A stretch of DNA of 64,000 nucleotides, taken from positions 310,001-374,000 of the forward strand of contig JAHLKX010000003.1 of assembly GCA_020444515.1 (NCBI GenBank). Direction: 5' to 3'. The stretch comes from Bacteroidota bacterium (lineage in GTDB: Bacteria; Bacteroidota; Bacteroidia; Bacteroidales; JAADJA01). Positions 4,189 through 30,807 of this stretch are shown here, piece after piece. Position 1 is the stretch's first letter. The number at the start of each line of letters is the position of its first letter. The translations under genes and the position numbers were made by a program. Under the pieces are notes generated by a model. It was not told where the DNA came from, did no database searches, and saw only the letters and a program-made list of their open reading frames with translations.

Positions 4189-4282
4189 TTTGTACCATTC
4201 AGTTTTTGGCATGCTAATCCTCATCAAATCTTAATTTTTCCTAAAGTATTTTAAACCTGTAAAAATGAATTGATTAAATGTG

Positions 4283-4290
4283 TAATTTTG
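4283..4290 (+). promoter_or_regulatory. -7 box for the glycogen operon
   Basis: TAATTTTG matches TAnnTTTG. Transcription would begin a few bases later, so the ATG at 4270 is upstream of the transcript and the ATG at 4321 is the start. Confidence 0.5.
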
Positions 4291-4320
4291 CACTCCATTT
4301 TTCAAAAGAATTTCATTTTT

Positions 4321-7583: not shown

Positions 7584-7615
7584 CCAACTATAACGAAAAC
7601 CGAATTCTATACAAT

Positions 7616-9184: not shown

Positions 9185-9207
9185 TCATTGGTCTGAAACT
9201 TTATATT

Positions 9208-9232
9208 AACCCGGGAAAACCCGGGTTTTTTT
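9208..9232 (+). terminator. Terminator of the debranching-GT4-GH57 operon
   Basis: Stem AACCCGGG / CCCGGGTT (9208-9215 and 9220-9227) with a 4-base A loop, running directly into a run of seven T. It reaches the stop codon of the convergent gene. Confidence 0.88.
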
Positions 9233-10172
9233 ATGCTTCAACCAGCTCATCATTTTGTTCCGGAAAAATTTTATAATCACTCCCAAATTGTTCCAGGAAC
9301 TCAACACTATAAGCTCTGAACGTATAAGACACCGGCAAAAAAACAACTGACCCAATATAGGGTATGATCAACAATAAAAAACCAATACAACAAGTTACAA
9401 AACCAAAAATGATGACGGCAATGACCACAGCAATTCCCAGGATGAAGATAAACAATCCATAAAGCAGGAAATATCCGAATTTAGGCCACAAAATTTCCAT
9501 GAATTTACGCCAGGCTGCATTGGTTTTAATCCGGTGCTTGAACATAATCGGCACAATAAAATCACTCAGAAAAAGAGAAATATAACCCACCAATATCATC
9601 AAAGCCAGAAAGTAAAAGATCATGCCAATGATATTTCCCCATTGCGAGGCAAATGGCACATCATTGATATACATCTCCTGGAAATACAGGTAAGCATATA
9701 TAATGGAAACAACAAATAACCCGAACGTTAAAAGTCCGAATACCAGTCGCCATAAAAACAACGAATTTCCCTCCCGGCTAAACTGTTTCCAGGGGGCCGA
9801 AACTTCCGCTTTATCATAAACAACATTGTGTAAAAACATGAATTTACCACGTGAACTCAACCAGGTAAGGACAATCCCGATGACAAATAGAAAAACGATT
9901 CCAAAAACTATGAGGGTGGCGATGACTGGGTGATCAATCAGCCACTCCCGCGCAATGTTTGGGAAATGGAAAAAATTATACAGATCATCGGAATGAACCT
10001 GGTTCCTGTAAGATGAACCATTTCCGCCACCACCGCCGCCGCCATCCAGGAGGCCGGCTAAAAAAGCAGTGAATCCCACAACAAACCATTTTCCTAGATC
10101 AAAAGGTTGAAATAATGCCTTTTTCATACGATTCCAGGCATTGGAGAAAGGAGCAATGTAATCAATGTTCAT
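9231..10172 (-). CDS. Multi-pass membrane protein of unknown function
   Basis: A 313-residue integral membrane protein with a cytosolic-looking start (MNIDYIAPFSNAWNRMKKALFQPFDLGKW) and six or more hydrophobic segments at about 30-42, 85-105, 140-165, 185-205, 225-255 and 260-285. A glycine run (GLLDGGGGGGGNGSS, about 41-55) follows the first segment, and a conserved-looking loop TWLSSRGKFMFLHNVVYDKA joins segments. The architecture resembles uncharacterised bacterial and archaeal families related to DUF4013/DUF7544. No catalytic motif is visible. It has no same-strand partner closer than porU, whose terminator separates them. Confidence 0.75.
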   Translation of the reverse strand: MNIDYIAPFSNAWNRMKKALFQPFDLGKWFVVGFTAFLAGLLDGGGGGGGNGSSYRNQVHSDDLYNFFHFPNIAREWLIDHPVIATLIVFGIVFLFVIGIVLTWLSSRGKFMFLHNVVYDKAEVSAPWKQFSREGNSLFLWRLVFGLLTFGLFVVSIIYAYLYFQEMYINDVPFASQWGNIIGMIFYFLALMILVGYISLFLSDFIVPIMFKHRIKTNAAWRKFMEILWPKFGYFLLYGLFIFILGIAVVIAVIIFGFVTCCIGFLLLIIPYIGSVVFLPVSYTFRAYSVEFLEQFGSDYKIFPEQNDELVEA

Positions 10173-10237
10173 GGCTGATCAGATTGGTTATATCCTACGA
10201 AGATAAAAAATAATATGCTAAACGATTAAATATTAAC

Positions 10238-10267
10238 AAAAAAATACCGGGACGATTTATCCCGGTA
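10238..10267 (-). terminator. Terminator of porU
   Basis: On the minus strand, stem TACCGGGA / TCCCGGTA with a 7-base loop is followed by a run of seven T (plus-strand A run at 10238-10244). Confidence 0.85.
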
Positions 10268-10302
10268 ATATTTCACAAAAAGCTATAAAACAGAAGTAAG
10301 TT

Positions 10303-13254
10303 TTATTTGATAATGATTTTTCGCGATTGAATGAAAGCATCAGCTGTGATGGTCAGGATATAAAAACCAGCCGGGAATTCAGATACATTCAATTCCCCCT
10401 TCATCCCTTTTTTATAATTTATCATTCTCAGCAATTCAAAATGCTCCCCTGATAGGTTGATCAGCTCACAGCTAACATTTTTGCAATCTTTGTCTATCTG
10501 AATAAACATCCGATCATCTGTCATGGTGGGATAGACTTGAATGGCCAACGCATCCTCACGGCGATCCCATACCGAGGCTTGTAATCCACCCACCAGGATA
10601 TCTTTGAAATATCCGGCTGCATCCTCTGTTTCTGTCCATGCATAATAACTCAATTTGATGTTTCCATAAACCGAATCCATATCATTTGGAAGGAAAAATT
10701 CCGTTTCCCAATGACCATTTGTAACACTGGTGGAAACTACCTTTACCACACTATCCTGGACTTCAAAATCGGTGATATAAATGGAGGTATCATTCCCAAG
10801 TGTTGTCCTCGTTTCAGATCTATCGAATACCTGAATAGTCAATTCTCCGTTAAAACCAGACACGAGATTACCTTCTTCGGAAAGGATATACCCATCAAGG
10901 GTAATAAATGACCCGGGATGCAGGGTATCTGTGAATTCTTCAACAGGGATGCCTTTGATGGATTCGGTTTTAACCTGTAAAAGTGGAACTGCAATCCGCA
11001 TCGCCGGATCACCAAAGAATATAAATTTGGATGCATTCTCAATGCTATTACTACTGTTTTTTGCCAACTGAATATCTCTACCAAATGCACGATCAGGATC
11101 GTTGAGCCAATTGGAATAAACTTTTTTGCATATACTCATATTGGCGCTTGCATAAGTTGGACGGGTTGGTGAAAGTACCGCCACCATCCCCTTGTATTCT
11201 TTGCTTAATAATTCCATAAACATGGGATTGACCTCAGGATCATCCATTTGACCGAATGCACAGGTAAAAGTCATAAATACAGGCAATTTATTCACGTTGT
11301 TCCACGATTGAATATCCTCGGGAGTCATCACCTGTTCATGTGCCAGGTAGTTATAACCACCATGGCCCTGGTAATTTATAACAAGCACTCCATCATTTAT
11401 TTGCTGGTTGATGGCTTCATTAACCTCCGGATAGCGCTGTTCTCCGTTAGGAAGGGTAATTTGCGGGAATGCATCCAGGTAAATTTTGGAAACATTCATA
11501 TACGGAGCTAATTGATTCACACTATCCGCAATTTCTTCTGCATCGGCGAAATGCAAATTTCCATCCTCATCATCTGCGATCAGGGCCAATTGATTATGCC
11601 AGTTTCCGGTATTTCCCTGAGATGCATATTGCATCAAATTCTGAACAAAAATGTCAGCTTCGGTAACTGTTTCTGCCGGAATCCGGCCCAACGCCAACGA
11701 CAAAATGAAACCTTCCGAAAAACGCACAAAATAATCATCCGAGCAATAAGAACCAACCGGGCTCAGTGATTCTTCAGATTCCCATGTCGGAACAAAATTG
11801 GTATTGTTTTCCAGCCGATCCTTGTAATCTACCGATGCATCTCCCATCAGCAAAAGATACTTTGGATTTTCACCATTCGATTTTTCATAAAGATATTTTA
11901 CAAAATCCCTTATGGCAGTTACATCCTGCGCTCCTGACGAAAACTCATTGTAAATGATTTGAGGAGAAGTGATGGCTACAGAAAGATTATTATTTGATTC
12001 GCGGAAACCACCCAGGGTGCTGGCGGCCGATTCAAATTCCGGTGCCGTAATGATCACCATTTCAGGGATCGTCATGCCATGCAGGTTTTGATTTTCAACA
12101 GCTCCGATAAATTCAGGTGTAAGATCTGAATCAGTGAAGGCAAGAAACTGCAGCATCGATTCGGTTTCAAGCGTGTATTCTGCAACAGATCCGGTTAAAT
12201 CAAAATCGATATCAGCCGGCAACAAAGGATCAGTAACATTCCATATTTGCATGGCACTGGAAGCATTATCTAAATCAAATTGGGTTAACATTCCTGGCCC
12301 ATAGGCATCCTGATCAGAAAAGAACATTTGCGGGCCTTCAAAAATTAAATTCCTTTTTGCTGATAATGTAAAATAATCGAGCCAGCCTGTGGCCGAATCA
12401 TTGGGTTGTTCATATTCAAATGTCAGGTTAAAATCTTCATCATTGGGGAAAAATTCAACTTCTCCTGAATTAATTCTTGCATAATTAGAAAGCGAATTAC
12501 CAAAATTGACTGAAACAATTTGTTTAGAATCCAGCAAAACCCCATCAGCATAAATGCTAAAGAAACTTGCAACACTGCTTCGGGCTGCAACACGATAGCC
12601 CAGCATTACCGGTTGATCAATCTTTAAATTGGGAATTGAGATCGGGAAATCATGGGTAAGCTGATCATCAAACCTTTCGGCAAACCATATTTTACCTGAA
12701 TGGATCAAGTTCTCCAGCTCCGGTTCATAAACCATATTCCAGGAATAACTATCGGAGAAATTTGTCGGTGGTATCACCGTTGAATATTGGGTTTGTAGGC
12801 GCAAAGCATCGGGCATATCCAGATTAAGGAAATAAAAAACTTCATCTGAATAAAGGTTGGTTTCGTGTATCAATTTGCCTGTGGATTCATTTACATTCCA
12901 CTCCGTTGGACCCTCACCATAAAAGAGGATAAAATCATCCATGTCAAATGATTGGTCCTCCTCGCCCACTACTTTAATAGCAATCTCCTGAAGATCATCA
13001 TACCTGAATTCATCAGGTGATTCGGGCAACATACCATTGCCATTTCCATAGATCGCGATACTTTCAGGATTTAACAAACCAGGGTCAATGCCCCAATTCA
13101 ACAAATCATCGTAAGTAATTTTATAAACACCCGTTTCAGAAACGGAGAGTTTATACCAGGTTCCATCAGAGAGAACAGAATTTTGGGATATACCCATAAA
13201 CGGCAGGAAAAACCAAATGATAATTCCTGCAAAATGCATGAATTGTTTGTTCAT
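10303..13254 (-). CDS. porU: Gingipain-family (C25) protease, type IX secretion sortase PorU-like
   Basis: A 983-residue exported protein with a signal peptide ending near GISQ. The N-terminal region is typical of PorU: SVLSDGTWYKLSVSETGVYK, AIYGNGNGMLPE and DDFILFYGEGP. The C25 caspase-like domain (about 400-740) has the catalytic pair H631 (NYQGHGGYNYLAHE) and C665 (TFTCAFGQMDDP), 34 residues apart as in gingipains. The last 80 residues form a T9SS type A sorting domain, ending FPAGFYILTITADAFIQSRK. PorU cleaves sorting domains of T9SS cargo at the outer membrane. A secreted C25 paralogue is the alternative, as the chain is somewhat short for PorU. Confidence 0.78.
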   Translation of the reverse strand: MNKQFMHFAGIIIWFFLPFMGISQNSVLSDGTWYKLSVSETGVYKITYDDLLNWGIDPGLLNPESIAIYGNGNGMLPESPDEFRYDDLQEIAIKVVGEEDQSFDMDDFILFYGEGPTEWNVNESTGKLIHETNLYSDEVFYFLNLDMPDALRLQTQYSTVIPPTNFSDSYSWNMVYEPELENLIHSGKIWFAERFDDQLTHDFPISIPNLKIDQPVMLGYRVAARSSVASFFSIYADGVLLDSKQIVSVNFGNSLSNYARINSGEVEFFPNDEDFNLTFEYEQPNDSATGWLDYFTLSAKRNLIFEGPQMFFSDQDAYGPGMLTQFDLDNASSAMQIWNVTDPLLPADIDFDLTGSVAEYTLETESMLQFLAFTDSDLTPEFIGAVENQNLHGMTIPEMVIITAPEFESAASTLGGFRESNNNLSVAITSPQIIYNEFSSGAQDVTAIRDFVKYLYEKSNGENPKYLLLMGDASVDYKDRLENNTNFVPTWESEESLSPVGSYCSDDYFVRFSEGFILSLALGRIPAETVTEADIFVQNLMQYASQGNTGNWHNQLALIADDEDGNLHFADAEEIADSVNQLAPYMNVSKIYLDAFPQITLPNGEQRYPEVNEAINQQINDGVLVINYQGHGGYNYLAHEQVMTPEDIQSWNNVNKLPVFMTFTCAFGQMDDPEVNPMFMELLSKEYKGMVAVLSPTRPTYASANMSICKKVYSNWLNDPDRAFGRDIQLAKNSSNSIENASKFIFFGDPAMRIAVPLLQVKTESIKGIPVEEFTDTLHPGSFITLDGYILSEEGNLVSGFNGELTIQVFDRSETRTTLGNDTSIYITDFEVQDSVVKVVSTSVTNGHWETEFFLPNDMDSVYGNIKLSYYAWTETEDAAGYFKDILVGGLQASVWDRREDALAIQVYPTMTDDRMFIQIDKDCKNVSCELINLSGEHFELLRMINYKKGMKGELNVSEFPAGFYILTITADAFIQSRKIIIK

Positions 13255-13539
13255 TATACAAGATTTTAGGATTCGTGTTTATGGTATATATTCAGATAGG
13301 CCCTTTGATTTGGGATATGTGTTAAAGATGCGAGGGAAATAAAAATGGTTGCGTAACGTTCTGATAAATTGCACTCCCTAAGGGGTAATTAACAAAAAAA
13401 AGGGCATGACTGGTCACCATCATTTTTATGCAGTTCATTATATTTAATAGAATGTTAACATAAATATTTTTGTGCAAGAAGCCTTTCGAATATATTTGCG
13501 CGTTAATTTGAATTTACGTATTGAATTGCTGTAATTAAA
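13255..13539. other. Divergent intergenic region between porU and the glucan fusion gene
   Basis: 285 bases without a gene. The half nearest the fusion gene is AT-rich and holds a complete -33/-7 promoter (13469-13498). Near porU I find no TAnnTTTG box, and no RNA structure is evident. Confidence 0.6.
13469..13498 (+). promoter_or_regulatory. Bacteroidota -33/-7 promoter for the GT3-GT35 fusion gene
   Basis: TTTG at 13469-13472, an 18-base spacer, then TATATTTG at 13491-13498. This is the most complete promoter in the window and lies 41 bases before the ATG. Confidence 0.65.
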
Positions 13540-16500
13540 ATGAATAAAATGTCACAAAATAATATAAAACCTGAATTTTTATTTGAAACAAGTTGGGAAG
13601 TATGTAATAAGGTGGGAGGCATTTATACGGTGCTCTCCTCCAAGTATCCTTCTGTAAAAGGACAAATGGGCAATCGATATATTTTTATCGGACCCGACGT
13701 TTGGAAGGAAACACGCGAGAACCCTGATTTCATCGAGGACCGATCTTTGTATCATGAATGGGTAGGACAAGCTGAAAAAGAAGATCTTAGAGTTCGGATC
13801 GGTCGATGGAACATTCCGGGTAAACCGGTAGCCATCCTGGTCGACTTCACCACCTTCTTCTCTTTTAAAGATAAGATCTTTGCTAAATTTTGGGAAACAT
13901 ACCACCTCGACTCACTCACCGGAGGATGGGATTATATTGAGCCTTCTTTATTTGGATATGCTACTGGTAAAGTGATTGAAAGCTTCTGTAATTTTTATCT
14001 GCCCGCCGGGGAAAAAGCCATTGCTCATTTTCATGAATGGATGACCGGAGCAGGGATTCTATATCTCAAAGAATATGCCCCGCACATTGCCACGGTTTTT
14101 ACTACCCATGCAACCATTCTGGGCCGCAGTATGGCAGGTAATAATCTACCCCTTTACAGCCAGCTGGGGGAGTTCAATCCGGAAGAAATGGCCAAAAAAA
14201 CAGGCATTGTTGCTAAGTTTTCACTGGAGAAAAATGCCTCGGTTCATGCTGATAGTTTTACCACTGTTTCAGAAATCACGGCCAGGGAATGTTTTCATTT
14301 TTTCGACAGGGAGGTAGATGTCATAACACCCAATGGGTTTTCATCCTTCGACACCAATGCGGAAGAGTACATAAAAAGAAAATCAACCAGCCGAGATAAA
14401 ATTTTAGAAGTGGCATCTGCCGTTTATAATCAAAAGCTTGATGATGACACCCTCATCCTCATGACCAGCGGGCGGTATGAGTTTATCAATAAAGGTCTGG
14501 ATGCGTTTATTGATGCCCTGGGTAAATTGAATGAAGAGAAAAATCTGAACCGGAAAGTACTGGCCATCATTGCTGTTCCTGGAAATCATTCGGGCCCGCG
14601 CAAAGAAGTGATAGAAAGGATCAAATCACCTGATTTTTCACACCCTTTGTCCAATGAATACCTCACCCACAATCTATACGACAGGTACCATGATCCGGTT
14701 ATCAACCGCATCCTGGAAAACAACCTTAACAATGGTTCTGAAAGCCAGGTTAAAATGTTATTTGTGCCCGTATACCTTGATGGGCATGATGGAATATTCG
14801 AGCTGGAATATTATGACTTCCTGGCTGGTTGCGACCTGACTGCTTTCCCCAGTTTTTATGAACCCTGGGGTTACACCCCCCTCGAAAGTATTGCTTTTGG
14901 CATCCCCACCATCACAACAACATTGGCCGGTTTCGGATCCTGGGTCAAAGGAGCTTATAAAACCCCCCAGCAATCTGTTTCAGTTATTGAGAGAACAGAA
15001 GGGAATTATGACATTTTCGTCAGTAAAATTTCTGATCAAATCACGCATTTTGCCAACTGTGCGCAGGATGATTATCAGAAATCAAAATCAGAATCCCTTG
15101 AAATTGCCGCGAAGTTGCAATGGACCAATCTGGCCGAACAATATTCCGAAGCTTATAAGCTCGCCATCGAAAAATCCTCAAATCGGCCGGAGAAACTTCA
15201 CCGCAGAGCTGCCACCGAGTATTTATTGAAAGGAAGTGGCATCCAGGATCAACCCGATTGGAAGAAAATGTTTGTAAAAACCCAAATTCCAGATGAGTTG
15301 GAGCCACTGAAAGAAATGTCGCTAAATATGTGGTGGTGCTGGAATTATGAAGCAATTGAATTATTTGAATCCATTGAACCGGAACTATGGGTATCAACCG
15401 AGCGCAACCCCGTTAGCCTGCTCAATAAATTATCGTATGAACATTTACAGGATCTGAAATCAGATGAGGCATTCATGGAAAAAATGCGAAATGTTTATAA
15501 AACCTATACAACCTATATGGCAGATAAGGAAAATGCTCCGGAAGGTCATGTTGGATATTTTAGTATGGAGTTTGGGTTACATGAATCCGTTAAGATTTAT
15601 TCCGGTGGACTTGGAATACTGGCAGGTGATTACCTGAAAGAAGCATCTGATTCAAATAAAAGAATGACCGGCATTGGATTAATGTATCGCTATGGATATT
15701 TTGCACAAAGTATTTCCATATTTGGCGATCAGATTGCCGAAAGCAAACCACAGAAATATACTGATCTGCCGTTACAGCCGGTCCGTAATGAAAATGATGA
15801 ATGGGTTCGCATCGGAATAGCCCTGCCCGGCCGTACCCTTTACGCCAAAGTCTGGAAATTGCAAATTGGTCGTATCGATCTCTATTTGCTCGACACTGAT
15901 ATTGAGGAAAACACCATGGAGGATCGGGCCATTACGCATCATCTTTATGGTGGTGACTGGAACAACCGATTCAAGCAGGAACTTCTATTGGGAGTGGGAG
16001 GTGTAAGGTTATTGTATGCCCTCAATATCAAACCGGATGTTTACCATCTGAATGAAGGACATGCAGCCTTTGCCGGACTGGAACGTCTGCGTCACCTGGT
16101 GGAAGACCGTGGTATGAGTTTCGCAGCAGCCCGTGAGGTCATTCGATCCAGTAGTTTGTTTACGACCCACACGCCCGTTCCGGCAGGACATGATACCTTT
16201 TCGGAAGATATACTAAGGACATATATACCCCATTATGCCGACCGGCTGAATATTTCCTGGGACGACTTTATGAACCTGGGGCGCTATCATAAAAACAAAC
16301 CGGATGAAAAATTTTCGATGAGTGTTCTTGCTGCCAATCTATCCCAGGAAATGAACGGTGTTAGTAAAATTCATGGAAGGGTTTCAAGGGATATGTTTGC
16401 CGGTTTATATCCAGGATATTTTGCCGACGAACTGCACATTGGCTATGTGACCAATGGGGTGCATTATGCCTCATGGGCTGCTTCCAACTGGCAGCAGTTT

Positions 16501-17787
16501 CATGATTCCAAATTAGGAAAAGAACTCAAAAATGATCAGTCGAACCCTGGAATTTGGAAAAAGATCCATACTATTTCCGATGCCACTATATGGAAACAGC
16601 GACTTAAAGCACGAAAAGAATTCCTGGATTTCCTGAGAACAAAAATGCAGGATGACTTGCAAAGCCGCCAGGAATCACCGCAGGTGATTTATCAAACCAT
16701 TGATGGCATCATTGATGATGCCCTTTATATAGGGTTTGCCCGTCGTTTTGCTACCTATAAAAGGGCCCATCTACTTTTTACAAATATTGATCGCCTCGAA
16801 AAACTCCTTTCCGTTCCAGATAAACCACTTCGTTTTGTATTTGCCGGAAAGGCACACCCCAACGACAAACCAGGACAGGACCTGATCAAACGGATCATCG
16901 AAATATCCAAGATGCCGCAATTCATTGGCAAGATTATCTTCCTTGAAAATTATGATATGCATGTGGGTCGTCACCTGGTTTCAGGCGTAGATATATGGCT
17001 CAATACACCAACCCGTCCCCTGGAAGCCAGTGGCACCAGCGGTGAGAAAGCGGTGATGAATGGCGTGTTAAACTTGAGTGTTTTAGATGGTTGGTGGGCG
17101 GAAGGTTATAAACCCAATGCAGGCTGGGCCATTCAGGAAGCCAAGACTTATGCCAACCAGGCTTTCCAGGATGAACTGGATGCTGAAATTATTTACCAGC
17201 TCATCGAAGATGAAATTTTACCGGTTTATTTCGATCGCGATAAACAAGGGGTTTCTCACAAATGGGTAGGATATATTAAAAATAACTTCTCAGAAATCGC
17301 TCCCCATTTTACCATGAAACGCATGCTGGATGATTATTATAACTTATTTTATAATAAACTATTTGACCGGAATAAGCAGATGCGAAAGGACGATTTCAAA
17401 TTGGCTTATGAATTGGAGTCCTGGAAAACGCACATCCGGGAAAACTGGAATCATATCAAAATTTTATCGGTAAGGTTACCCAACTCCAGCTTGCGACCCC
17501 TAACCCTTGGGGAAACCTTTGAGGTGGAACTGGAAATCGACACCAATGGGATTGAACCGGATCAAATCGGCATTGAAATGGTGATCGGACAAAAAGTGAT
17601 GGACAAGGTGGATCATATTCACCGCCTGGTAGACCTTAAGTTAAAAGATACCGAGGAGGGTCATTCACGCTATGTTTGTGACATGGACCTGATTGAATCA
17701 GGGGTTTATGATTTTGCCTTCAGAATTTATCCAAAAAATGAAAAACTTCCACACCGTCAGGATTTTCCGCTGGTAAAATGGATATAG
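13540..17787 (+). CDS. Fused GT3 glycogen synthase and GT35 alpha-glucan phosphorylase
   Basis: A 1415-residue cytoplasmic protein combining opposing activities. Residues about 10-555 are a GT3 (eukaryote-like) glycogen synthase: FLFETSWEVCNKVGGIYTVL, AHFHEWMTGAGILYLK and the EX7E motif EPWGYTPLE (E441 and E449). Residues about 580-680 are DUF3417-like (LEPLKEMSLNMWWCWNYEA). Residues about 680-1290 are an alpha-glucan phosphorylase of the short bacterial type: GYFSMEFGLHESVKIYSGGL, NEGHAAFAGLERL, TTHTPVPAGHD and EASGTSGEKAVMNG with PLP lysine K1170. The C-terminal 100 residues form a beta-rich extra domain. The reading frame is continuous, so the fusion is real in this sequence. It probably balances glucan extension and phosphorolysis in one complex. 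Confidence 0.93.
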   Translation: MNKMSQNNIKPEFLFETSWEVCNKVGGIYTVLSSKYPSVKGQMGNRYIFIGPDVWKETRENPDFIEDRSLYHEWVGQAEKEDLRVRIGRWNIPGKPVAILVDFTTFFSFKDKIFAKFWETYHLDSLTGGWDYIEPSLFGYATGKVIESFCNFYLPAGEKAIAHFHEWMTGAGILYLKEYAPHIATVFTTHATILGRSMAGNNLPLYSQLGEFNPEEMAKKTGIVAKFSLEKNASVHADSFTTVSEITARECFHFFDREVDVITPNGFSSFDTNAEEYIKRKSTSRDKILEVASAVYNQKLDDDTLILMTSGRYEFINKGLDAFIDALGKLNEEKNLNRKVLAIIAVPGNHSGPRKEVIERIKSPDFSHPLSNEYLTHNLYDRYHDPVINRILENNLNNGSESQVKMLFVPVYLDGHDGIFELEYYDFLAGCDLTAFPSFYEPWGYTPLESIAFGIPTITTTLAGFGSWVKGAYKTPQQSVSVIERTEGNYDIFVSKISDQITHFANCAQDDYQKSKSESLEIAAKLQWTNLAEQYSEAYKLAIEKSSNRPEKLHRRAATEYLLKGSGIQDQPDWKKMFVKTQIPDELEPLKEMSLNMWWCWNYEAIELFESIEPELWVSTERNPVSLLNKLSYEHLQDLKSDEAFMEKMRNVYKTYTTYMADKENAPEGHVGYFSMEFGLHESVKIYSGGLGILAGDYLKEASDSNKRMTGIGLMYRYGYFAQSISIFGDQIAESKPQKYTDLPLQPVRNENDEWVRIGIALPGRTLYAKVWKLQIGRIDLYLLDTDIEENTMEDRAITHHLYGGDWNNRFKQELLLGVGGVRLLYALNIKPDVYHLNEGHAAFAGLERLRHLVEDRGMSFAAAREVIRSSSLFTTHTPVPAGHDTFSEDILRTYIPHYADRLNISWDDFMNLGRYHKNKPDEKFSMSVLAANLSQEMNGVSKIHGRVSRDMFAGLYPGYFADELHIGYVTNGVHYASWAASNWQQFHDSKLGKELKNDQSNPGIWKKIHTISDATIWKQRLKARKEFLDFLRTKMQDDLQSRQESPQVIYQTIDGIIDDALYIGFARRFATYKRAHLLFTNIDRLEKLLSVPDKPLRFVFAGKAHPNDKPGQDLIKRIIEISKMPQFIGKIIFLENYDMHVGRHLVSGVDIWLNTPTRPLEASGTSGEKAVMNGVLNLSVLDGWWAEGYKPNAGWAIQEAKTYANQAFQDELDAEIIYQLIEDEILPVYFDRDKQGVSHKWVGYIKNNFSEIAPHFTMKRMLDDYYNLFYNKLFDRNKQMRKDDFKLAYELESWKTHIRENWNHIKILSVRLPNSSLRPLTLGETFEVELEIDTNGIEPDQIGIEMVIGQKVMDKVDHIHRLVDLKLKDTEEGHSRYVCDMDLIESGVYDFAFRIYPKNEKLPHRQDFPLVKWI

Positions 17788-21931: not shown

Positions 21932-21948
21932 AAATTGATCTCACCAAA

Positions 21949-21983
21949 AACATCCGGTACCATAAAGTGCCGGATGTTTTTAT
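21949..21983 (+). terminator. Terminator after the Tricorn-like gene
   Basis: 12-bp stem AACATCCGGTAC / GTGCCGGATGTT with one G-U pair (21949-21960 and 21967-21978), 6-base loop, then a T-rich tail. Confidence 0.88.
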
Positions 21984-22037
21984 TTGTCCTTCTTTAAATT
22001 TATTGTACTTTAGTTGTTTATAAGAATTGTCCTTCCT

Positions 22038-22868
22038 ATGTCAATTGCGGAAATTATTAACTATAAAATACTGCAGACCGAAAAACTTTCGCTCACTGTT
22101 TACCAGTTAGTGGTATTCATTGTGATCCTCATCATCACCTGGTTGATCATGAAGGTCATTAAACGGTTCATCAACCGGAAAATAAAAAAGGGAAATATCA
22201 GTGCCAGCAATACACTGGCAGTTTACCAGATCGTCAAATATATCATCTGGATCCTGGCCATCGGCATTGCCCTGGAAGCCATCGGAATTAATTTTAACAT
22301 CCTGATTGCCAGCTCGGCTGCCTTGCTGGTAGGACTTGGCCTCGGGCTACAGCAAGTTTTCATGGATTACATTGCCGGCATTATCATCCTGGTGGAAGGT
22401 GTTATGCGGGTGAATGACGTGATCGAACTGGAGGATGTTGTTGGTGAAGTAAAACACATCGGATTGCGAACATCCAGAGTTGAAACCAGGGATGATTATG
22501 TGATCGTCGTGCCCAATCATAAACTGGTCAACGATATGGTGGTAAACTGGAGTCATAACCGGAAACTAACCCGTTTTCATGTAGAGGTTGGCGTGGCATA
22601 CGGATCGGATATCAGGTTGGTAGAAAAAATCCTGCTGGAATGTGCCAATGAAACCGGTAATGTTACCCAAATGCCACCCCCATTCGTAAGATTTGATAAT
22701 TTTGGAAATTCATCCCTTGATTTTAAATTGTTCTTTTTCACCGAAGATTCCTTCCGGGTTGAAAATACCAAAAGCACACTCCGCTTTAAGATCGATGATA
22801 AGTTTCGGGAGAATGGCATTCGGATTCCTTTCCCGCAAAGGGATGTACACATGATTAAACCCGAATAG
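22038..22868 (+). CDS. MscS-family small-conductance mechanosensitive channel
   Basis: A 276-residue MscS-type channel that releases ions and solutes on membrane tension. It has three predicted membrane helices (about 18-40, 62-85, 90-115). The third carries the Gly/Ala pore pattern ASSAALLVGLGLGLQQ, followed by YIAGIIILVEG. The beta domain reads VNDVIELEDVVGEVKHIGLR with VPNHKLVNDMVVNWS, and a C-terminal alpha/beta domain ends near 270. The ATG at 22038 (MSIAEIINYKIL) is preferred over the in-frame ATG at 22014, which adds a short hydrophobic stretch unlike the family start. It is the first gene of a three-gene cassette; the transporter fusion starts 50 bases after its stop. Confidence 0.92.
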   Translation: MSIAEIINYKILQTEKLSLTVYQLVVFIVILIITWLIMKVIKRFINRKIKKGNISASNTLAVYQIVKYIIWILAIGIALEAIGINFNILIASSAALLVGLGLGLQQVFMDYIAGIIILVEGVMRVNDVIELEDVVGEVKHIGLRTSRVETRDDYVIVVPNHKLVNDMVVNWSHNRKLTRFHVEVGVAYGSDIRLVEKILLECANETGNVTQMPPPFVRFDNFGNSSLDFKLFFFTEDSFRVENTKSTLRFKIDDKFRENGIRIPFPQRDVHMIKPE

Positions 22869-22918: not shown

Positions 22919-25900
22919 ATGGCAGTAAAAGCAAAAAAATTTGGAGCATTTGCAGGGGTATTTACACCATCTATTCTTACCATTCTCGGGGTAATCATGT
23001 ATATGAGGCTGGGATGGGTAGTAGGAAATGCTGGCCTGATCAACACCATCATCATTATCTTCCTGGCCCATGTGATCAGCCTTTCAACCGGATTAAGTGT
23101 TTCCTCCATCGCCACGGATAAAAAGATCAAAGCAGGTGGCATTTATTATGTTCTGAGTAGGAGTCTGGGCCTGCCTATGGGTGGTGCGATCGGCATAACA
23201 TTATTTGTCGGGACGGCCCTGAGCATTTCGCTTTACCTTGTCGGTTTTGCCGAAAGTTTTTTATCCATCGAACCGATCCGGGAATTTTTAGGTTTGCAGC
23301 AGGATGTAAATGGATTTCGGATCATCGGGACGGGTGCCATATTGGTCCTTGTGATCATTGCTTTTATCAGCACATCCCTGGCGATTAAGACCCAGTTTTA
23401 TATCCTCGGAGCCATTGTTTTGTCCTTGGTATCCATTGGTGTCGGCCTGTTCACCAATACAGACTTTCACCCCGAAACGATGCTTAGCAAACCAGCTACC
23501 GGTGGCATTTCCATGCCACTTTTGTTTGCTGTCTTTTTCCCAGCCGTAACAGGATTTACCGCGGGTATTGCCATGTCAGGTGACCTCAAAGACCCCAAAA
23601 AAGATATACCCTTTGGTACCATGGCTGCCATCATTGTTGGTTTCATTGTTTATGCAGGATTAGCCATTGCATTTGCCATTTTTGTCAACCGCAACCTGCT
23701 CATCAACGATACAAATTTCCTTCTCCAGGTGGCTTGGATTGCCCCCCTGGTTATTGCCGGCATATGGGGTGCAACACTTTCTTCTGCCCTTGGAGGAATT
23801 TTAGGTGGTCCAAGGATCCTGCAAGCCATTGCTTCCGATCGTATTGGACCAGGGATTTTTGCCAAAGGATTTGGCATTAATAATGAACCACGAAATGCCC
23901 TCATATTTATATTCCTCATTGCCGAAGCAGGGATCCTGATCGGCGAACTCAATATCATTGCCGGAATCGTGTCCATGTTTTACCTGACATCCTATGGATT
24001 TATCAATCTGGCCTTCTATCTTGAGAGCTGGGCAAGCACCGATTTTCGACCTTCTTTCCGGGTCAATAAATACACTGGTCTGATTGGATTTATTGCAGCT
24101 TTTGGAGTAATGTTCCAGCTTGATTTCCTGGCTATGATCGCTGCACTAGTCATCGTTGGGGGCATTTACTTCTATCTTAAGCGAAGACAGTTAAAACTTG
24201 AATATGGGGATGTATGGCAAAGTGTCTGGACAACGTTTATGCGCACAGCTCTCCAAAAAATGGATAATACGGAAACCCATGAAAGGAACTGGCAACCCAA
24301 TATCATGCTTTTCAGTGGCGGAACGAAAAAAAGGCCGCACTTACTGGAACTGGGCAAATCTTTTGTTGGAACGCATGGTGTTTTATCCAATTTCGACCTG
24401 ATTGAACAAAAAGATGCCAAGGTCTTATTTCCGAAAAACCAACAATCCCTGCCAGGTAAACAATCCGAAAAGGGAGTATTCACGAGGCAGCAAGCCGTCC
24501 GGGATATTTATGCTGGAATTGACATGATTGCACGAACCTATGGATTTTCAGGTCTGGAACCCAATACCGTCATGCTGGGATGGGCCAGGCAAACCCGCAA
24601 TCCGGAGCAATTTGCCAATCTATTGAATACTTTTTATGATCTCGATCTGAATGTAATCCTGCTGGGTTATGATAAACGATATGGGTACGGTAAATATAAA
24701 ACCATTGATATATGGTTCAAAGATCGCAGCAACAATGGTAATCTGGCACTGACACTCACCAAGTTATTGTTGATCTCTGAAAACTGGCAGAATGCCAAAG
24801 CCCGCGTACTGATTGTGAACCACAGAAACGAAAAAAGTGAAATCGTAGCCCGAAAAGCAGAGGCTATCCTAGATCAAATGCGCGTAAATGGCCGGGTTAA
24901 AGTCATCAACAACCAGGTTGAACAAAAACCCTTTTATACCATCGTTGAGGAAGAATCCAAAACAACTGATCTGGTTTTTTTCGAAATACCGGATTTTAAA
25001 GAGGGGAATGCTGCGGAGTTCATTGAAAAAACCAATCTGCTCCTTGAAAGGATAGGGACTGTGGTAATGATCAGCGGGTCATCCTCCTTTAAAAAACTCA
25101 GGTTTGGTCTCGAAAATGAAGATATTAAATATCCCGAAAAAGTTATCGCCCCAACCAGGGAGGCCGTACAACAAAAAGTCCACTATCCAGGGAACCTGAT
25201 ACTTGCAGATGCCCTCAAAAAACTCTGGAGTGATCTGCAAGAACATCTGAAAACACAGATGGAAAATACCTTTTTACCCCTGCTTCAATATCGCTCTGAT
25301 AAAGTGCGGGCAACACGGCAGATTGTTTCTAAATCGTTGCATACCATTGACGAGCGGCTTCCAGGAATAAAATCGGATCAACAAAAACAATTTCTGGTGC
25401 AATTGAAGACCAGCCTCATTACCCGATTAAGTAACATCATTGCAGAGCAAATCAAACTCATCCGTAAAGAACAGGAAGAATTTCTGGAAACAGGAATGCC
25501 CAAAATGATTCAACAGGTCCAAAAGATGATTGATGAACTTCCTGAAAAACTAACCTTTCAATTGAATCAGGAAAACCTTGCGAAACAACCGACCGATACT
25601 TTCAATACACGATTTTTTAAATGGCGCAAAAGACTGGTAGCCGGTCAAAAGCTGAAAGATAATGGCATTCCTTACACGGTCAGATATCAAAAAGCTTCGC
25701 GAAGCTTTCTTTCCATTGCCTCCATCCACGCACTTCAGAATGGGATGAAAAAATTCGACCAGTTTCAGGTTAAACTGGTTTTTGAGTACAGGAAATTGTC
25801 CTATGCCATTCTCGATACGTTTGCTTTCCTGGAAACCAATACCCAAAACGAGATGGATGTGGCAAATCAAATTCAGCAGGCAAAACAAACCATCGAAGAT

Positions 25901-28111
25901 CACATTGAGCAACTCGAAAACTTAACGGACAACATCGAAAAAGAGCTCAACCAAACATTTCAATCCACCCTGATCCAGTCTGTGGAATCACTTGGAAACA
26001 GCCTTCAAAAAATCCCTGCAAACCATTATTTGCATGCTCCGGATAGCAAAACAGAAAAAGAAAATAAAAACCAGCTTCTTTCAATGCCCCAGGAATGGGC
26101 CAAACAACAGGAAATTCTGCTCAACACATTGTGGCTTGAGCTTAAAATCCTGCAAGTAGAATTTCGCTTGTCAAGGATGATGGAGGAAAGTTTTATAGAG
26201 ATCGGGAAGGAGGTCCATGCGGATGTGCTCAAACAGGTAGGAGCGCTGGATCAAACATTACTGGAATTGTCCAAAGCCAGGGAAACTGTCATAAAGGGAA
26301 AAGCCGGGCAGGTATTGGATCAGTTTAACTATGATGAGCAGGCCATGCGGCACAAGATCAACCGGATCATTGAAAAGATTTACAGAAATACGCGCACCAT
26401 TCAGCGAATCATACCGGAAAGTGTCACACTTTTCACCGAAGAAACCGTCAATGAGCTTACGCAAAGCAATCAATCAGATCAGGAAACAATAGATTTACCC
26501 GTATCAAGGATCATTGATTATCACATTCAGAACTTATTGATGGAACCTTTGCACAACAATACTGCTGAACTGATACAATCGTTGCATGAATCGGTAACCC
26601 GGGTTGAAGATTCAGTCCGGTTAATTTCCCTGAGTGCGCATGAAACACAGACGGACATTCCGGGAGAAGATTATGAATTCGTGGATGATATGCAGAGCTT
26701 TATCCACGAACAGCAATCAAAGATCAGGGAGCAACATGAACACATTGAAAAAACCATGGAGGATTACTTCAGGACCATCCACAATCACCTGAAAGAAACA
26801 CTGGATGAGTTCCCTGTTTACAGACTGATCCGATCCATTGAAACCATCACCCAGTTTCGCCCACAGAAAAAGGCCGCTGTTAGAATGCAGAAATTGAAAG
26901 GTAGATGGAATAAGGCCAAAGATTATTTACAGGAACAAAGGGCTAATCTTTGGCATTCACAAAGTGAAGCCAGGCTGTTGGCCATGCAATTCTCCAATGG
27001 AACGGAAGGTTCCGGAAACACCGTCACCCAATCGTTGCTATTAAAAGAAAGGTTATCACCTACTGACCGGGTCAGAAACAAACTACCCTTTTATTATCAG
27101 CAACTGTTTACCGGAAAATTCAATTTCCAACCGGAACTTTGGATCGGACGGAAAGAGATACTGGATCAGGCAAGACGAGGGTTACAGCGATTCAAAGCCG
27201 GGCAGAAAGGCATCATATCCATCACAGGTCGAAGAAGATCAGGGAAGTCCTTCTGCGTAGCATACCTGGCAGGTCATGCACTGCTCAACCGAAAGGTTTA
27301 TACCATCCGTCCACCTGCCGGCGGCACAACCGATCCGGAGCAAATTGTGGGAGTTATCCGGGAAGCCACCGGATACACGGGCAATATCCATGAGATCATG
27401 CATGCTCTGCCTGAAAACTCAACCCTCATCTTTGACGATCTTGAATTGTATTGGGAAAAATCACCGGGAGGAACCGCCGGGCTGGAATTCCTTATAGATA
27501 TCATGAAGCAATACTGCCAGCGGGTGCTGTTTATCATTACCTGCGACCGAAAAGCTTATTCTGTGATATCGAGACAGGTTTCCCTGCAAGCACTTTCCAT
27601 TCAACACATCGAATTAAAACCATTTAATTCCAAAGAATTGCAGGATATCATCTTGTTGCGTCATCGGACCAGCGGTTTTGCTTTGCAGGTTGATACTGCT
27701 ATCCCGGCAACCCTTACTTTAACCCGTCAGGCCCGTTTGTTCTCAAGGATCTTCAGATTTTCTGCTGGAAATGTGGGGAGTGCCCTTCTGCTATGGATAT
27801 CATCCATCCATGACTTTAAAAACAACACCATTTTTATACACACACCCGTTGGGGTTGATGCGCGTCCCCTTGATGCCCTTGACAACAAGTTGAAACTTTA
27901 CCTCATGCAATTTGCTTTGCACAAGCGAATGGACCTGGGTAAAATAGAACGGGTAACACAAGACGACCGGGTCACCGTGATCAATCATATACAGGTTCTG
28001 CAGCGATCAGGTTTGATCATAGAACAGGCAGGCCCTATTTATGAAATTACACCTTTTGTGTATGATCAGGTGCGGAAAATGCTGGAAGAAGATATATTGA
28101 ATGAAGTTTAA
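22919..28111 (+). CDS. SLC12-type cation-chloride cotransporter fused to helical region and P-loop NTPase
   Basis: A single 1730-residue frame. Residues 1-420 are a 12-helix APC-fold transporter of the cation-chloride cotransporter family: ILGVIMYMRLGWVVGNAG (TM1), GGIYYVLSRSLG with Y76/Y77 (TM3), FFPAVTGFTAGIAMSGDLKD (TM6), then NNEPRNALIFIFLIAEAG. Residues about 420-740 match the soluble C-terminal domain of eukaryotic NKCC/KCC proteins (ERNWQPNIMLFSGG, RPHLLELGKSFV). Residues about 740-1400 are almost wholly helical and coiled-coil-like, with no membrane segment. Residues about 1405-1640 are an AAA/STAND-like NTPase: Walker A GRRRSGKS at 1437-1444, Walker B LIFDDLE with D1506/D1507, sensor-like LFIITCD, then GNVGSALLLW. 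A winged-helix-like end follows. Substrate ions and nucleotide role are unknown. Confidence 0.88.
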   Translation: MAVKAKKFGAFAGVFTPSILTILGVIMYMRLGWVVGNAGLINTIIIIFLAHVISLSTGLSVSSIATDKKIKAGGIYYVLSRSLGLPMGGAIGITLFVGTALSISLYLVGFAESFLSIEPIREFLGLQQDVNGFRIIGTGAILVLVIIAFISTSLAIKTQFYILGAIVLSLVSIGVGLFTNTDFHPETMLSKPATGGISMPLLFAVFFPAVTGFTAGIAMSGDLKDPKKDIPFGTMAAIIVGFIVYAGLAIAFAIFVNRNLLINDTNFLLQVAWIAPLVIAGIWGATLSSALGGILGGPRILQAIASDRIGPGIFAKGFGINNEPRNALIFIFLIAEAGILIGELNIIAGIVSMFYLTSYGFINLAFYLESWASTDFRPSFRVNKYTGLIGFIAAFGVMFQLDFLAMIAALVIVGGIYFYLKRRQLKLEYGDVWQSVWTTFMRTALQKMDNTETHERNWQPNIMLFSGGTKKRPHLLELGKSFVGTHGVLSNFDLIEQKDAKVLFPKNQQSLPGKQSEKGVFTRQQAVRDIYAGIDMIARTYGFSGLEPNTVMLGWARQTRNPEQFANLLNTFYDLDLNVILLGYDKRYGYGKYKTIDIWFKDRSNNGNLALTLTKLLLISENWQNAKARVLIVNHRNEKSEIVARKAEAILDQMRVNGRVKVINNQVEQKPFYTIVEEESKTTDLVFFEIPDFKEGNAAEFIEKTNLLLERIGTVVMISGSSSFKKLRFGLENEDIKYPEKVIAPTREAVQQKVHYPGNLILADALKKLWSDLQEHLKTQMENTFLPLLQYRSDKVRATRQIVSKSLHTIDERLPGIKSDQQKQFLVQLKTSLITRLSNIIAEQIKLIRKEQEEFLETGMPKMIQQVQKMIDELPEKLTFQLNQENLAKQPTDTFNTRFFKWRKRLVAGQKLKDNGIPYTVRYQKASRSFLSIASIHALQNGMKKFDQFQVKLVFEYRKLSYAILDTFAFLETNTQNEMDVANQIQQAKQTIEDHIEQLENLTDNIEKELNQTFQSTLIQSVESLGNSLQKIPANHYLHAPDSKTEKENKNQLLSMPQEWAKQQEILLNTLWLELKILQVEFRLSRMMEESFIEIGKEVHADVLKQVGALDQTLLELSKARETVIKGKAGQVLDQFNYDEQAMRHKINRIIEKIYRNTRTIQRIIPESVTLFTEETVNELTQSNQSDQETIDLPVSRIIDYHIQNLLMEPLHNNTAELIQSLHESVTRVEDSVRLISLSAHETQTDIPGEDYEFVDDMQSFIHEQQSKIREQHEHIEKTMEDYFRTIHNHLKETLDEFPVYRLIRSIETITQFRPQKKAAVRMQKLKGRWNKAKDYLQEQRANLWHSQSEARLLAMQFSNGTEGSGNTVTQSLLLKERLSPTDRVRNKLPFYYQQLFTGKFNFQPELWIGRKEILDQARRGLQRFKAGQKGIISITGRRRSGKSFCVAYLAGHALLNRKVYTIRPPAGGTTDPEQIVGVIREATGYTGNIHEIMHALPENSTLIFDDLELYWEKSPGGTAGLEFLIDIMKQYCQRVLFIITCDRKAYSVISRQVSLQALSIQHIELKPFNSKELQDIILLRHRTSGFALQVDTAIPATLTLTRQARLFSRIFRFSAGNVGSALLLWISSIHDFKNNTIFIHTPVGVDARPLDALDNKLKLYLMQFALHKRMDLGKIERVTQDDRVTVINHIQVLQRSGLIIEQAGPIYEITPFVYDQVRKMLEEDILNEV

Positions 28112-28125: not shown

Positions 28126-28875
28126 ATGAACATAACTGAGAATAACTGGCAAATGATCTTTATCAACTTCGTGTTGATTGGGATCATTCTGCTGATGTTA
28201 TTCAGGGTACTGCGTTTCAGTTTACCCTGGCTTCTGCGGAATCCAAAAAAACTTGGATTCCTGAAACGACAATTGCCGGTCATTGAAATTGTCTTTTGGT
28301 TTCTCTATCTTTCATGGTTCGTTTTCAGGTTTGCCCAAAAACTGGAGGTATATGCCCTGGTGGTAGCAGCGATCCTGTTTATTTTGTTGTTCTGGTTTTC
28401 AAAATTTTATTTACGAGAGATCATAGCCGGGATCATCTTCAAGACGACGGGCCGATACAAAAAGGGAGACACTCTGCAGACCGGTGATTATTCGGGCAAA
28501 ATACTGCGATTCAGATCTGATGTCGTGGAGCTGGAATCCTCCGATGGACGGCTGATATTTCTCCCGTATAGCCAACTGACTGGGGGTGCCGTTAACATCA
28601 AGTCGGAAGGCGCTGAAAAAGCTTCCGGGTATAGTTTCGAGATGATAACAGACCCGGACATGGATCCAGCTGCTTTTGAACAGGCTTTGCAATCCCATGC
28701 CCTCTCACTCCCGTGGATCAGCATCAGTAAGCCCATCCAGGTCTCCCTCCAAAAGACAGGAGCTGAAGGAATGGCCTACAAAGTTACTGTTTACTTGCTC
28801 GACCGAACCTTTTCAACCCGCGCAGAAAAGGCAATTCGAGAGCAATTTGAAATTTCCGGGACCAAGAATAATTGA
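28126..28875 (+). CDS. Divergent MscS-like membrane protein
   Basis: A 249-residue protein with three hydrophobic segments (about 11-31, 50-70, 76-96) and a soluble beta domain recognisable as MscS-like: REIIAGIIFKTTGRYKKGDT, YSGKILRFRSDVVELESSDG and IFLPYSQLTGGAVNI. The pore helix differs from the canonical channel upstream: in place of a Gly/Ala-rich TM3 it has FILLFWFSKFYLREIIAG. The C-terminal domain is short (QVSLQKTGAEGMAYKVTVYL). It starts 14 bases after the transporter-NTPase stop with a clear Shine-Dalgarno. It may be a channel with altered gating or a non-conducting regulatory subunit; the sequence does not decide. Confidence 0.82.
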   Translation: MNITENNWQMIFINFVLIGIILLMLFRVLRFSLPWLLRNPKKLGFLKRQLPVIEIVFWFLYLSWFVFRFAQKLEVYALVVAAILFILLFWFSKFYLREIIAGIIFKTTGRYKKGDTLQTGDYSGKILRFRSDVVELESSDGRLIFLPYSQLTGGAVNIKSEGAEKASGYSFEMITDPDMDPAAFEQALQSHALSLPWISISKPIQVSLQKTGAEGMAYKVTVYLLDRTFSTRAEKAIREQFEISGTKNN

Positions 28876-28992: not shown

Positions 28993-30807
28993 ATGGGGGA
29001 AGCAGCTATAACAACACGAGAACTGGACGGGAAAAGGTTTTACTATAGTTTCCTTGCCGGCGCTCAGAAAATTTTTGAGCATTATCAGGGTATTAACAAG
29101 ATCAATGTTTTTCCGGTAGCCGACGGAGATACCGGAACCAATCTTGCATCAACCATGCGATCTATCATTGATACGGCCATTCCTACCGATAATATCAAAG
29201 TAACAGCCGTAGCCCTCGCCGATGCTGCGCTTGTTGGTGCCCGTGGTAACTCAGGCATCATTTTCGCCCAGTTCCTTTATGGATTCAGCAATGAGATCCC
29301 CAACAATAACAACCTTTCCATCGCCGATTTTGCTGAGATCATCAAAAAAGCTGTCAGATATGCCTATGAAGCCATTGCTAACCCGGTGGAAGGAACGATG
29401 ATATCCGTCATGCGTGAATGGGCTGAATATGTTTACCTCATCAAGGATAAATTCCAGGATTTTAATACCCTCATTGCTGATTCCTATACCAAGGCCAAAG
29501 AATCTCTGGCAGATACCCCTAAAAAACTGGAGATCCTTGCCAAAGCCCATGTAGTGGATGCCGGTGCCAAAGGATTTGTTTTATTCCTGGAAGGGATGAT
29601 TGACTTTTTTAAACATGGTCAGCTCAAGCAAATTGCTCAAACCCGTAACGTAAGCAAGATCAAAGAATTTGAAGAAATCTTTCATGATGAATCCACCATC
29701 ACATACCGTTATTGTACCGAAGCATTGATATCCTTCGATAATGAGAACCCGGATAATAAACATATCCTGAAGAAGGCCATTGAAGAATTTGGTGATTCGC
29801 TGGTAGTAGCAGGCTCTCCCAAAAAGCTCAGGTTACATATTCATACCGACGAACCTGCTGCCATGTTTTCAGCCATTAAAGATATTGGCAATATCTCCTT
29901 TAAAAAAGTCGATGATATGGTGATGCAAAACGACATTGTCCACCATCGCAAATGGAATATCGCTCTTTTAACCGATTCCACATGCGATTTACCACAGGAG
30001 GTCATCGAGAAATACCAGATCCAGGTGGTGCCCCTGACTGTTCACTTTAAAAGTGATTTTTACCTCGACTCGCTAACCATCACCTCCGATGAGTTTTATA
30101 AATTGATGGAAGAGGCTGATTATAATCCTACAACAGCACAGCCTACTTATAAAGACTTTACCAACCGTTATAATTATCTCTCGAGTCACTATGACAAGAT
30201 CATAGGTTTGCACCTGAGTGAAAAGATGAGTGGTACTTTTTCCAACAGTAAAAAAGCTGCACATGCCGTGCAGGAAAGGCAACAATCCGAAATTACTGTC
30301 CATAGCTCAAACAAGCTCACAGCAGCGCTTGGATTGATGGTTTTACGCGCCGCAGAGGCCATTGAAAATGGGATGGGTTATGAGGATCTCAACAGGGAAA
30401 TTTCAAACTGGGTTCCCAAAGCCCATATGATGGTAAATGCACCAACACTTAAATACATGATCCGTGGAGGAAGGGTAAGTGCCGTTAAAGGATTCGTCGG
30501 AAAACTTCTGAAAATTCAACCCCTCGTCAAGGTCAACCCGGAAGGTAAAACGGAAGTATTTGGGAAACCCCGGTCTACAAAACAGGCGATGAAGATGGTG
30601 ATAGATGAAGCCATCAGAGCGATGGAAGGCAATAAATTATGGGGATATGCCATTGCCCACGCCAATAACATAAAAGGTGCGGAATGGTATGCCACAGAGA
30701 TGGAATCCATTACCGGACAAAAACCCAAATTCATCAATGCGGCCTCACCGGTATTGGGTGCCCATGTGGGACCAGGTGTTGTGGGACTGGCTCTGTTGCT
30801 AGAATAA
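28993..30807 (+). CDS. DhaL (DAK2)-DegV fusion, FakA/FakB-like fatty acid kinase
   Basis: A 604-residue cytoplasmic protein. Residues 1-205 form a DhaL kinase domain with the Mg-nucleotide motif INVFPVADGDTGTNLAST, ARGNSGIIFAQFLYGF and VDAGAKGFVLFLEGM. Residues about 220-305 match the FakA middle region (TYRYCTEALI). Residues about 312-604 form a DegV/FakB fatty-acid-binding domain: IALLTDSTCDLPQEVIEKY, TTAQPTYKDF, HLSEKMSGTFSNS and YMIRGGRVSAVKGFVGKLLK. In Firmicutes, FakA phosphorylates fatty acids presented by separate FakB proteins; here kinase and carrier are one chain. Acyl-phosphate production for phospholipid synthesis is the expected role, inferred from the parts. Confidence 0.88.
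   Translation: MGEAAITTRELDGKRFYYSFLAGAQKIFEHYQGINKINVFPVADGDTGTNLASTMRSIIDTAIPTDNIKVTAVALADAALVGARGNSGIIFAQFLYGFSNEIPNNNNLSIADFAEIIKKAVRYAYEAIANPVEGTMISVMREWAEYVYLIKDKFQDFNTLIADSYTKAKESLADTPKKLEILAKAHVVDAGAKGFVLFLEGMIDFFKHGQLKQIAQTRNVSKIKEFEEIFHDESTITYRYCTEALISFDNENPDNKHILKKAIEEFGDSLVVAGSPKKLRLHIHTDEPAAMFSAIKDIGNISFKKVDDMVMQNDIVHHRKWNIALLTDSTCDLPQEVIEKYQIQVVPLTVHFKSDFYLDSLTITSDEFYKLMEEADYNPTTAQPTYKDFTNRYNYLSSHYDKIIGLHLSEKMSGTFSNSKKAAHAVQERQQSEITVHSSNKLTAALGLMVLRAAEAIENGMGYEDLNREISNWVPKAHMMVNAPTLKYMIRGGRVSAVKGFVGKLLKIQPLVKVNPEGKTEVFGKPRSTKQAMKMVIDEAIRAMEGNKLWGYAIAHANNIKGAEWYATEMESITGQKPKFINAASPVLGAHVGPGVVGLALLLE

Follow-up and report, generated by a model that had tools for sequence, protein, structure and literature searches.

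A single reading frame in the window (the whole stretch of Bacteroidota DNA that was analysed, 64,000 nucleotides in length) encodes a protein in which a cation-chloride cotransporter (CCC) is joined through a soluble helical bundle to a P-loop NTPase of predicted ORC/STAND type with a C-terminal winged helix, and the gene is followed closely by one for an MscS-like membrane protein. It is proposed that an NKCC-like importer, a nucleotide switch and the MscS-like partner constitute one osmotic-control unit, a reading to which we assign a probability of roughly 55%. As the switch turns up repeatedly in the company of K+/Na+/Cl- transport and of MscS-family proteins, osmotic control is the most economical reading.

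The fusion gene and its surroundings

The fusion gene, its domains and the neighbouring elements of the cluster are located in the window as follows.

21946..21981, + strand: terminator-like stem-loop of 15 pairs, just 5' of the three-gene cluster (consensus scan)
22014..22868, + strand: gene for a canonical MscS-type mechanosensitive channel, 50 bp 5' of the fusion (PF00924 3.2e-19, PF21082 1.6e-18)
22919..28111, + strand: whole fusion gene, CCC transporter, C-terminal domain (CTD), helical bundle, P-loop NTPase and winged helix, 1730 aa
22919..24208, + strand: APC-fold CCC transmembrane domain, residues 1-430 (TIGR00930 and PDB homology, residue counts)
24209..25123, + strand: CCC C-terminal domain, residues 431-735
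25124..27028, + strand: soluble helical bundle, residues 736-1370 (AlphaFold2 model; no TM stretch)
27029..27868, + strand: predicted ORC/STAND-type P-loop NTPase domain, residues 1371-1650, with a conserved RH motif at 1581-1582
27227..27250, + strand: Walker A GRRRSGKS, residues 1437-1444
27434..27439, + strand: Walker B acidic pair D1506/D1507
27869..28108, + strand: winged helix-turn-helix, residues 1651-1730 (HHH-beta-beta in the model)
28126..28875, + strand: partner gene, MscS-fold membrane protein with a divergent TM3, 249 aa, 14 bp 3' of the fusion gene

The fusion frame begins with ATG and runs for 1730 codons with no internal stops. The initial annotation had read it as a CCC with its CTD, a helical region, a P-loop NTPase and a winged-helix-like end, and the frame, the profiles and the structural model all agree with this description; the TM1, TM3 and TM6 motifs that it named are found in the CCC part, and Walker A and the acidic pair lie at the residues given for them. 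Misassembly, frameshift or chance as the origin of the fusion is excluded, the first two having been named beforehand as explanations that could undo it: the fusion is no assembly artefact because the same full-length, single-frame arrangement occurs in many other genomes, including G295 where it lies on a single 3.57-Mb contig. Nor are transporter and NTPase separate genes throughout the lineage, which had been raised as a second objection, since the two share one frame in 42 of the 53 loci recovered by a scan of GTDB genomes that answers the survey proposed at the outset. Among the remaining loci, contig ends truncate several, and in two the frame is split.

Within the cluster, the consensus scan detected no strong terminator-like site in either gap separating the genes. 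Outside close relatives, the upstream canonical MscS gene keeps this position in just a few genomes (synteny in L002/L052 and L074), and it was therefore rejected as an essential part and is treated as context. A 604-aa frame at 28993-30807 with the look of a DAK-phosphatase/DegV-type fusion follows the cluster here and also in L003 and L007. Further upstream, at 13540-17787, a 1415-aa frame resembles glycogen synthase joined to alpha-glucan phosphorylase, as judged by translation alone, and sits in a glycogen/GH57-like cluster at about 4270-17787.

The transporter and the cytoplasmic NTPase

The profile comparison suggested in the initial annotation reveals CCC homology over both the transmembrane domain and the CTD. 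Residues 3-681 match the K-Cl cotransporter model TIGR00930 with E=1.8e-122, which lies under the model's strict curated cut-off, and the protein matches the Pfam AA_permease family at 7e-48. Among solved structures, phmmer recovers human NKCC1 (1.6e-81) as well as KCC4, KCC2, KCC3, KCC1 and NCC. Judged by its sequence and sites, the fusion protein is a member of the CCC/SLC12 family. The ion sites were compared by the definitions published for human NKCC1 (PMC7889885), and the transmembrane domain retains counterparts of the residues at the Na+, K+ and Cl- sites. The Na+ site residues S613/S614 of NKCC1 correspond to S288/S289 (kept in 49/51 fused proteins) and the K+ site residues P496 to P208 (51/51) and T499 to T211 (48/51), and the TM3 tyrosine at position 76, which likewise belongs to the K+ site (tandem Tyr), is kept in 48 of the 49 fused proteins that cover this position. 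Trp300 is replaced by Leu and Asn298 by Thr in this comparison, and both residues are said to act via their backbone carbonyls (PMC7889885). Because the NKCC1 ion-site equivalents are kept in the fused proteins, the transporter looks Na+-dependent and transport-competent, and NKCC-like in that respect.

Two relatives carry fusion genes in which the transporter is degenerate.

L029:66-5021: fusion ORF with degenerate transporter
L020:1483-6519: fusion ORF with degenerate transporter

In the first of these (genome G033) the TM1, TM3, TM6 and TM8 ion-site motifs are gone, in the second (G019) they are partly gone, and both retain Walker A and the downstream MscS-like gene. The two proteins are candidate transceptors whose degenerate transporters speak, for some lineages at least, in favour of a sensing role; the loss of the motifs suggests that transport is not always the point. 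It is conceivable that this applies to the whole family, with the CCC chiefly sensing Na+/K+/Cl- or ionic strength, the coil-NTPase relaying the signal to the MscS-like protein and net transport being secondary, and the pairing of stand-alone versions of the module with MscS, with no transporter at all, would be in keeping with such a relay. However, 49 of 51 fusions have preserved the counterparts of the NKCC1 sites, a pattern compatible with selection for transport, and we regard a predominantly sensory CCC as rather unlikely.

The cytoplasmic part of the protein, residues 740-1730, has zero hydrophobic stretches of TM strength. An AlphaFold2 model of the C-terminal part, calculated as a single chain from a shallow alignment of 17 relatives with a mean pLDDT of 79.4, begins with very long helices arranged in an array, the longest of 77 residues, and continues into a P-loop domain and a winged helix of helix-helix-helix-strand-strand order. 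The best Foldseek matches are Aeropyrum ORC2 (2e-7), ORC/Cdc6 proteins from Drosophila, yeast and archaea, RuvB and the Pyrococcus Walker ATPase PABY2304, with values ranging to 3e-5. At the sequence level the NTPase has a weak Pfam match to AAA_22 (E=0.0026) and weak similarity to nSTAND/AAA_16, and a search of PDB sequences with the NTPase and stand-alone profiles did not return a confident homologue. The structure prediction and AAA/STAND comparison called for by the initial annotation thus describe an ORC/STAND-type P-loop NTPase with a C-terminal winged helix. Like ORC/Cdc6 and STAND/MNS-type NTPases (1w5t, 2qby, 2qen), it has a GR motif before Walker A and the same predicted fold including the C-terminal winged helix. 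It differs from them in being mounted on an ion transporter via a helical bundle, in its divergent Walker B and in a similarity that remains below Pfam cut-offs.

Within Walker A, G1437 and G1442 are invariant among the 51 fused proteins and K1443 is present in 50. The first position of Walker B, residue 1506, is far more variable (D in 27, N in 12, E in 7, H in 4 and Q in 1), so that the first Asp is replaced in 24/51; the DD pair is intact in the window protein, and five aligned stand-alone homologues have DG at this site, not DD/DE. A near-invariant Walker A and a variable Walker B give better support to the binding of nucleotide than to its obligatory hydrolysis. The same pattern would also suit an AAA+/ORC-like domain that serves as a chaperone-like or oligomerisation platform and, with no part in acute regulation, helps to assemble or localise the transporter together with the MscS-like protein; the long helices are suited to a scaffold. 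Such a role would nevertheless leave unexplained why the module recurs with three classes of osmotic ion transport and not with membrane proteins generally, and we consider it improbable.

A more remote idea is that of a membrane-tethered transcription regulator whose winged helix binds DNA under the gating of the NTPase. ORC/Cdc6 proteins bind DNA via winged-helix domains, and the winged helix of the fusion has weak sequence similarity to MarR/HlyU. However, STAND and ORC-like proteins often carry a winged helix without sequence-specific regulation, and in this case the protein that contains the domain is anchored in the membrane, which makes a regulator of this kind very unlikely.

The MscS-like partner and the NTPase module beyond the fusion

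The initial annotation overlooked the partner gene of the fusion, the MscS-like gene that begins 14 bp downstream. Its product matches the MscS beta domain (Pfam PF00924, 1.1e-07), and its single-chain model, built from a shallow alignment of 22 sequences, matches E. coli MscS with a Foldseek E=9e-13. The predicted fold is thus that of the MscS family, from which the partner differs in its TM3. Over 22 positions this helix has 4-7 small residues and 3-7 aromatics, compared with 8-9 and 2-3 in canonical proteins, and the Gly/Ala-packed pore helix pattern of canonical MscS, which is present in the partner of the stand-alone module, is absent from it. As TM3 is without the small-residue packing of canonical pores, the protein may not be an ordinary channel and may not conduct; it is an MscS-fold protein, not a proven channel.

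Of the 47 loci with sufficient sequence, 30 have the partner gene directly after the fusion, a lower bound under a strict distance rule by which the other 17 are scored as lacking it. Among 60 relatives it is present in 20/22 genomes with the fusion and in 0/38 without (Fisher p 5.5e-14), and when counted by family, by which relatedness is only partly allowed for, in 9/9 and 0/35. One of the two genomes that miss it, G001, is cut at a contig end. In G003 and G032, which have the fusion without adjacency, the gene is located elsewhere in the genome, and G014 has two fusions and two partner genes, each pair adjacent. Neither MscS nor NTPase genes were found near unfused CCCs at any of 31 loci, some of which overlap and most of which have flanks of 1.5 kb. 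The co-occurrence of the fusion with the MscS-like gene looks obligate.

The fusion or its pieces are found in about 20 of the 60 related genomes and the fusion in four genomes, G295 among them, of a phylum-wide sample of 394. Most hosts are uncultivated members of the Bacteroidales, Flavobacteriales, Saprospiraceae and Chlorobiota, and there are also single MAGs under the names Calditrichia, Kapaibacterium and Deltaproteobacteria; such MAG names may be wrong. The closest unfused CCCs (in G193, G285 and G199) are 51-54% identical and 726-731 aa long, stopping where the fusion continues into its extension. The idea that these represent split genes with a separate NTPase beside the CCC was rejected, as none occurs within the 15-kb regions, and MscS matches in the three genomes are at generic or background level only. 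The transporter tree, with SH-aLRT support from a quick search, requires three changes between fused and unfused forms, and the branches of L020 and L029 are very long and of unsure placement. One fusion followed by two losses would suffice for this tree, and the unfused CCCs of the three genomes fit secondary loss. Four flavobacterial/saprospiral members (L084, L090, L103 and L098) that nest with the CCC group in the NTPase tree have lost the transporter. The genome of the window has a second CCC, an ordinary unfused protein of 744 aa (L022:4208-6439, G000 C9), near which MscS and NTPase genes are absent.

The same genome also encodes an unfused 995-aa coil-NTPase (G000 C4) which is followed by a canonical MscS gene. 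The stand-alone family to which it belongs aligns with the C-terminal half of the fusion with 99.9% probability over 664 columns (hhalign), and the NTPase profile matches 84 of the 394 phylum genomes, a few of them weakly. A same-strand adjoining MscS gene is found in 42 of 44 stand-alone coil-NTPase neighbourhoods, three of which were seen twice. Bundle and NTPase together make up a stand-alone family that is widespread in Bacteroidota and almost always sits beside a canonical MscS gene. At eight further loci (L159, L160, L164, L167, L169, L171, L178 and L179) an NTPase of ~450 aa without the long helical part precedes an MscS gene.

The module is also found inside proteins of ~1500 aa at L173-L177, where two of the four tested have the PF00999 N-terminus of a CPA-type (Na+/H+-exchanger) antiporter (2.9e-20 and 7e-19) and the other two are below the Pfam threshold, all five being alike in length and context. 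Their operons contain MscS and TrkH, and several include a TrkA-like gene and a second membrane gene of 414-422 aa; at L183 and L190 a PF00999 gene stands next to an unfused version of the module. The NTPase tree, likewise with SH-aLRT support from a quick search, places the CCC-fused proteins apart from the CPA-fused ones, the latter among the stand-alone MscS partners, and because they occupy different parts of the tree the two fusions look independent. The NTPase had initially been described as a built-in module of the transporter. It is indeed built in and is not specific to the CCC, as it occurs mainly beside MscS and is also fused to CPA.

Defence systems include ion-permeable effectors, and the weak nSTAND/AAA_16 similarity could be taken to suggest an anti-phage or conflict system that combines a STAND-like NTPase with membrane effectors, yet PADLOC gave no meaningful match, which disfavours a known system, and the housekeeping neighbours that are stable within families, the Trk/CPA context and the intact transporter sites, with no patchy defence-island pattern, render this explanation scarcely credible.

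Proposed osmotic control by a nucleotide switch

In the proposed osmotic-control unit the CCC part is probably a Na+-dependent (NKCC-like) salt importer, and the cytoplasmic end would form an ORC/STAND-type nucleotide-binding switch on a long helical-bundle lever beneath the transporter, acting together with the MscS-like product of the next gene. What the switch senses may be nucleotide state, an ionic signal or crowding; through the bundle, occupancy by ATP/ADP or assembly of the NTPase would be read out to set transport, the MscS-like partner or both. In this manner ion uptake and turgor-related membrane events would be kept in step and would not work against each other. The signal could run in either direction, from the NTPase to the transporter or from the transporter as a sensor to the MscS-like protein. 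Regulation of the transporter by the NTPase, which the initial annotation suggested, is strengthened by the gene context and is still something that we infer, as are physical contact, the signal sensed by the NTPase, the direction of control and ion selectivity.

The fusion shares its transporter fold, CTD and ion-site equivalents with SLC12 CCCs (NKCC1, KCCs) and with prokaryotic CCCs, the Methanosarcina acetivorans protein among them, and it differs from them in ~1000 extra residues that include a P-loop NTPase, whereas unfused bacterial CCCs stop near residue 740. The proposed manner of working is like that of KtrAB/TrkAH and CLC-CBS, nucleotide-gated systems in which the ion transporter is controlled by a nucleotide-binding domain in the cytoplasm. 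The putative regulatory domain of the fusion, however, is unrelated to theirs and also recurs with MscS-type channels. The initial annotation set a built-in nucleotide module against eukaryotic CCCs that are controlled by separate kinases, a contrast which was too sharp, as the CTD of human KCC1 itself binds ATP/ADP (PMC8280820). The likeness to human KCC1/NKCC1 lies in adenine nucleotide binding linked to a CCC, which is predicted for the fusion; the human pocket is USP-like and located inside the CTD (PMC8280820), whereas the fusion has a separate Walker-type NTPase after the CTD. Searches of the open-licence literature returned no report of a CCC-NTPase fusion, a CPA fusion or an MscS-linked NTPase family.

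A broader proposal, to which we give somewhat less than even credence, is that one undescribed family of ORC/STAND-type NTPases may serve as a general osmotic control device of Bacteroidota, paired with MscS and separately fused to transporters of two unrelated superfamilies, CCC and CPA, so that a nucleotide switch would physically couple ion uptake to mechanosensitive membrane proteins. The usual view of bacterial MscS channels is that of self-sufficient tension-gated valves, and to our knowledge almost nothing is known of bacterial CCC physiology. The NTPases are a testable family that is caught weakly by Pfam, and the fusion offers a bacterial and genetically simple setting for CCC control during volume regulation. 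A conserved NTPase that accompanies both MscS and CCC, and is built into a CCC, suggests joint and active tuning, in some bacteria, of salt uptake and of MscS-type proteins according to nucleotide state.
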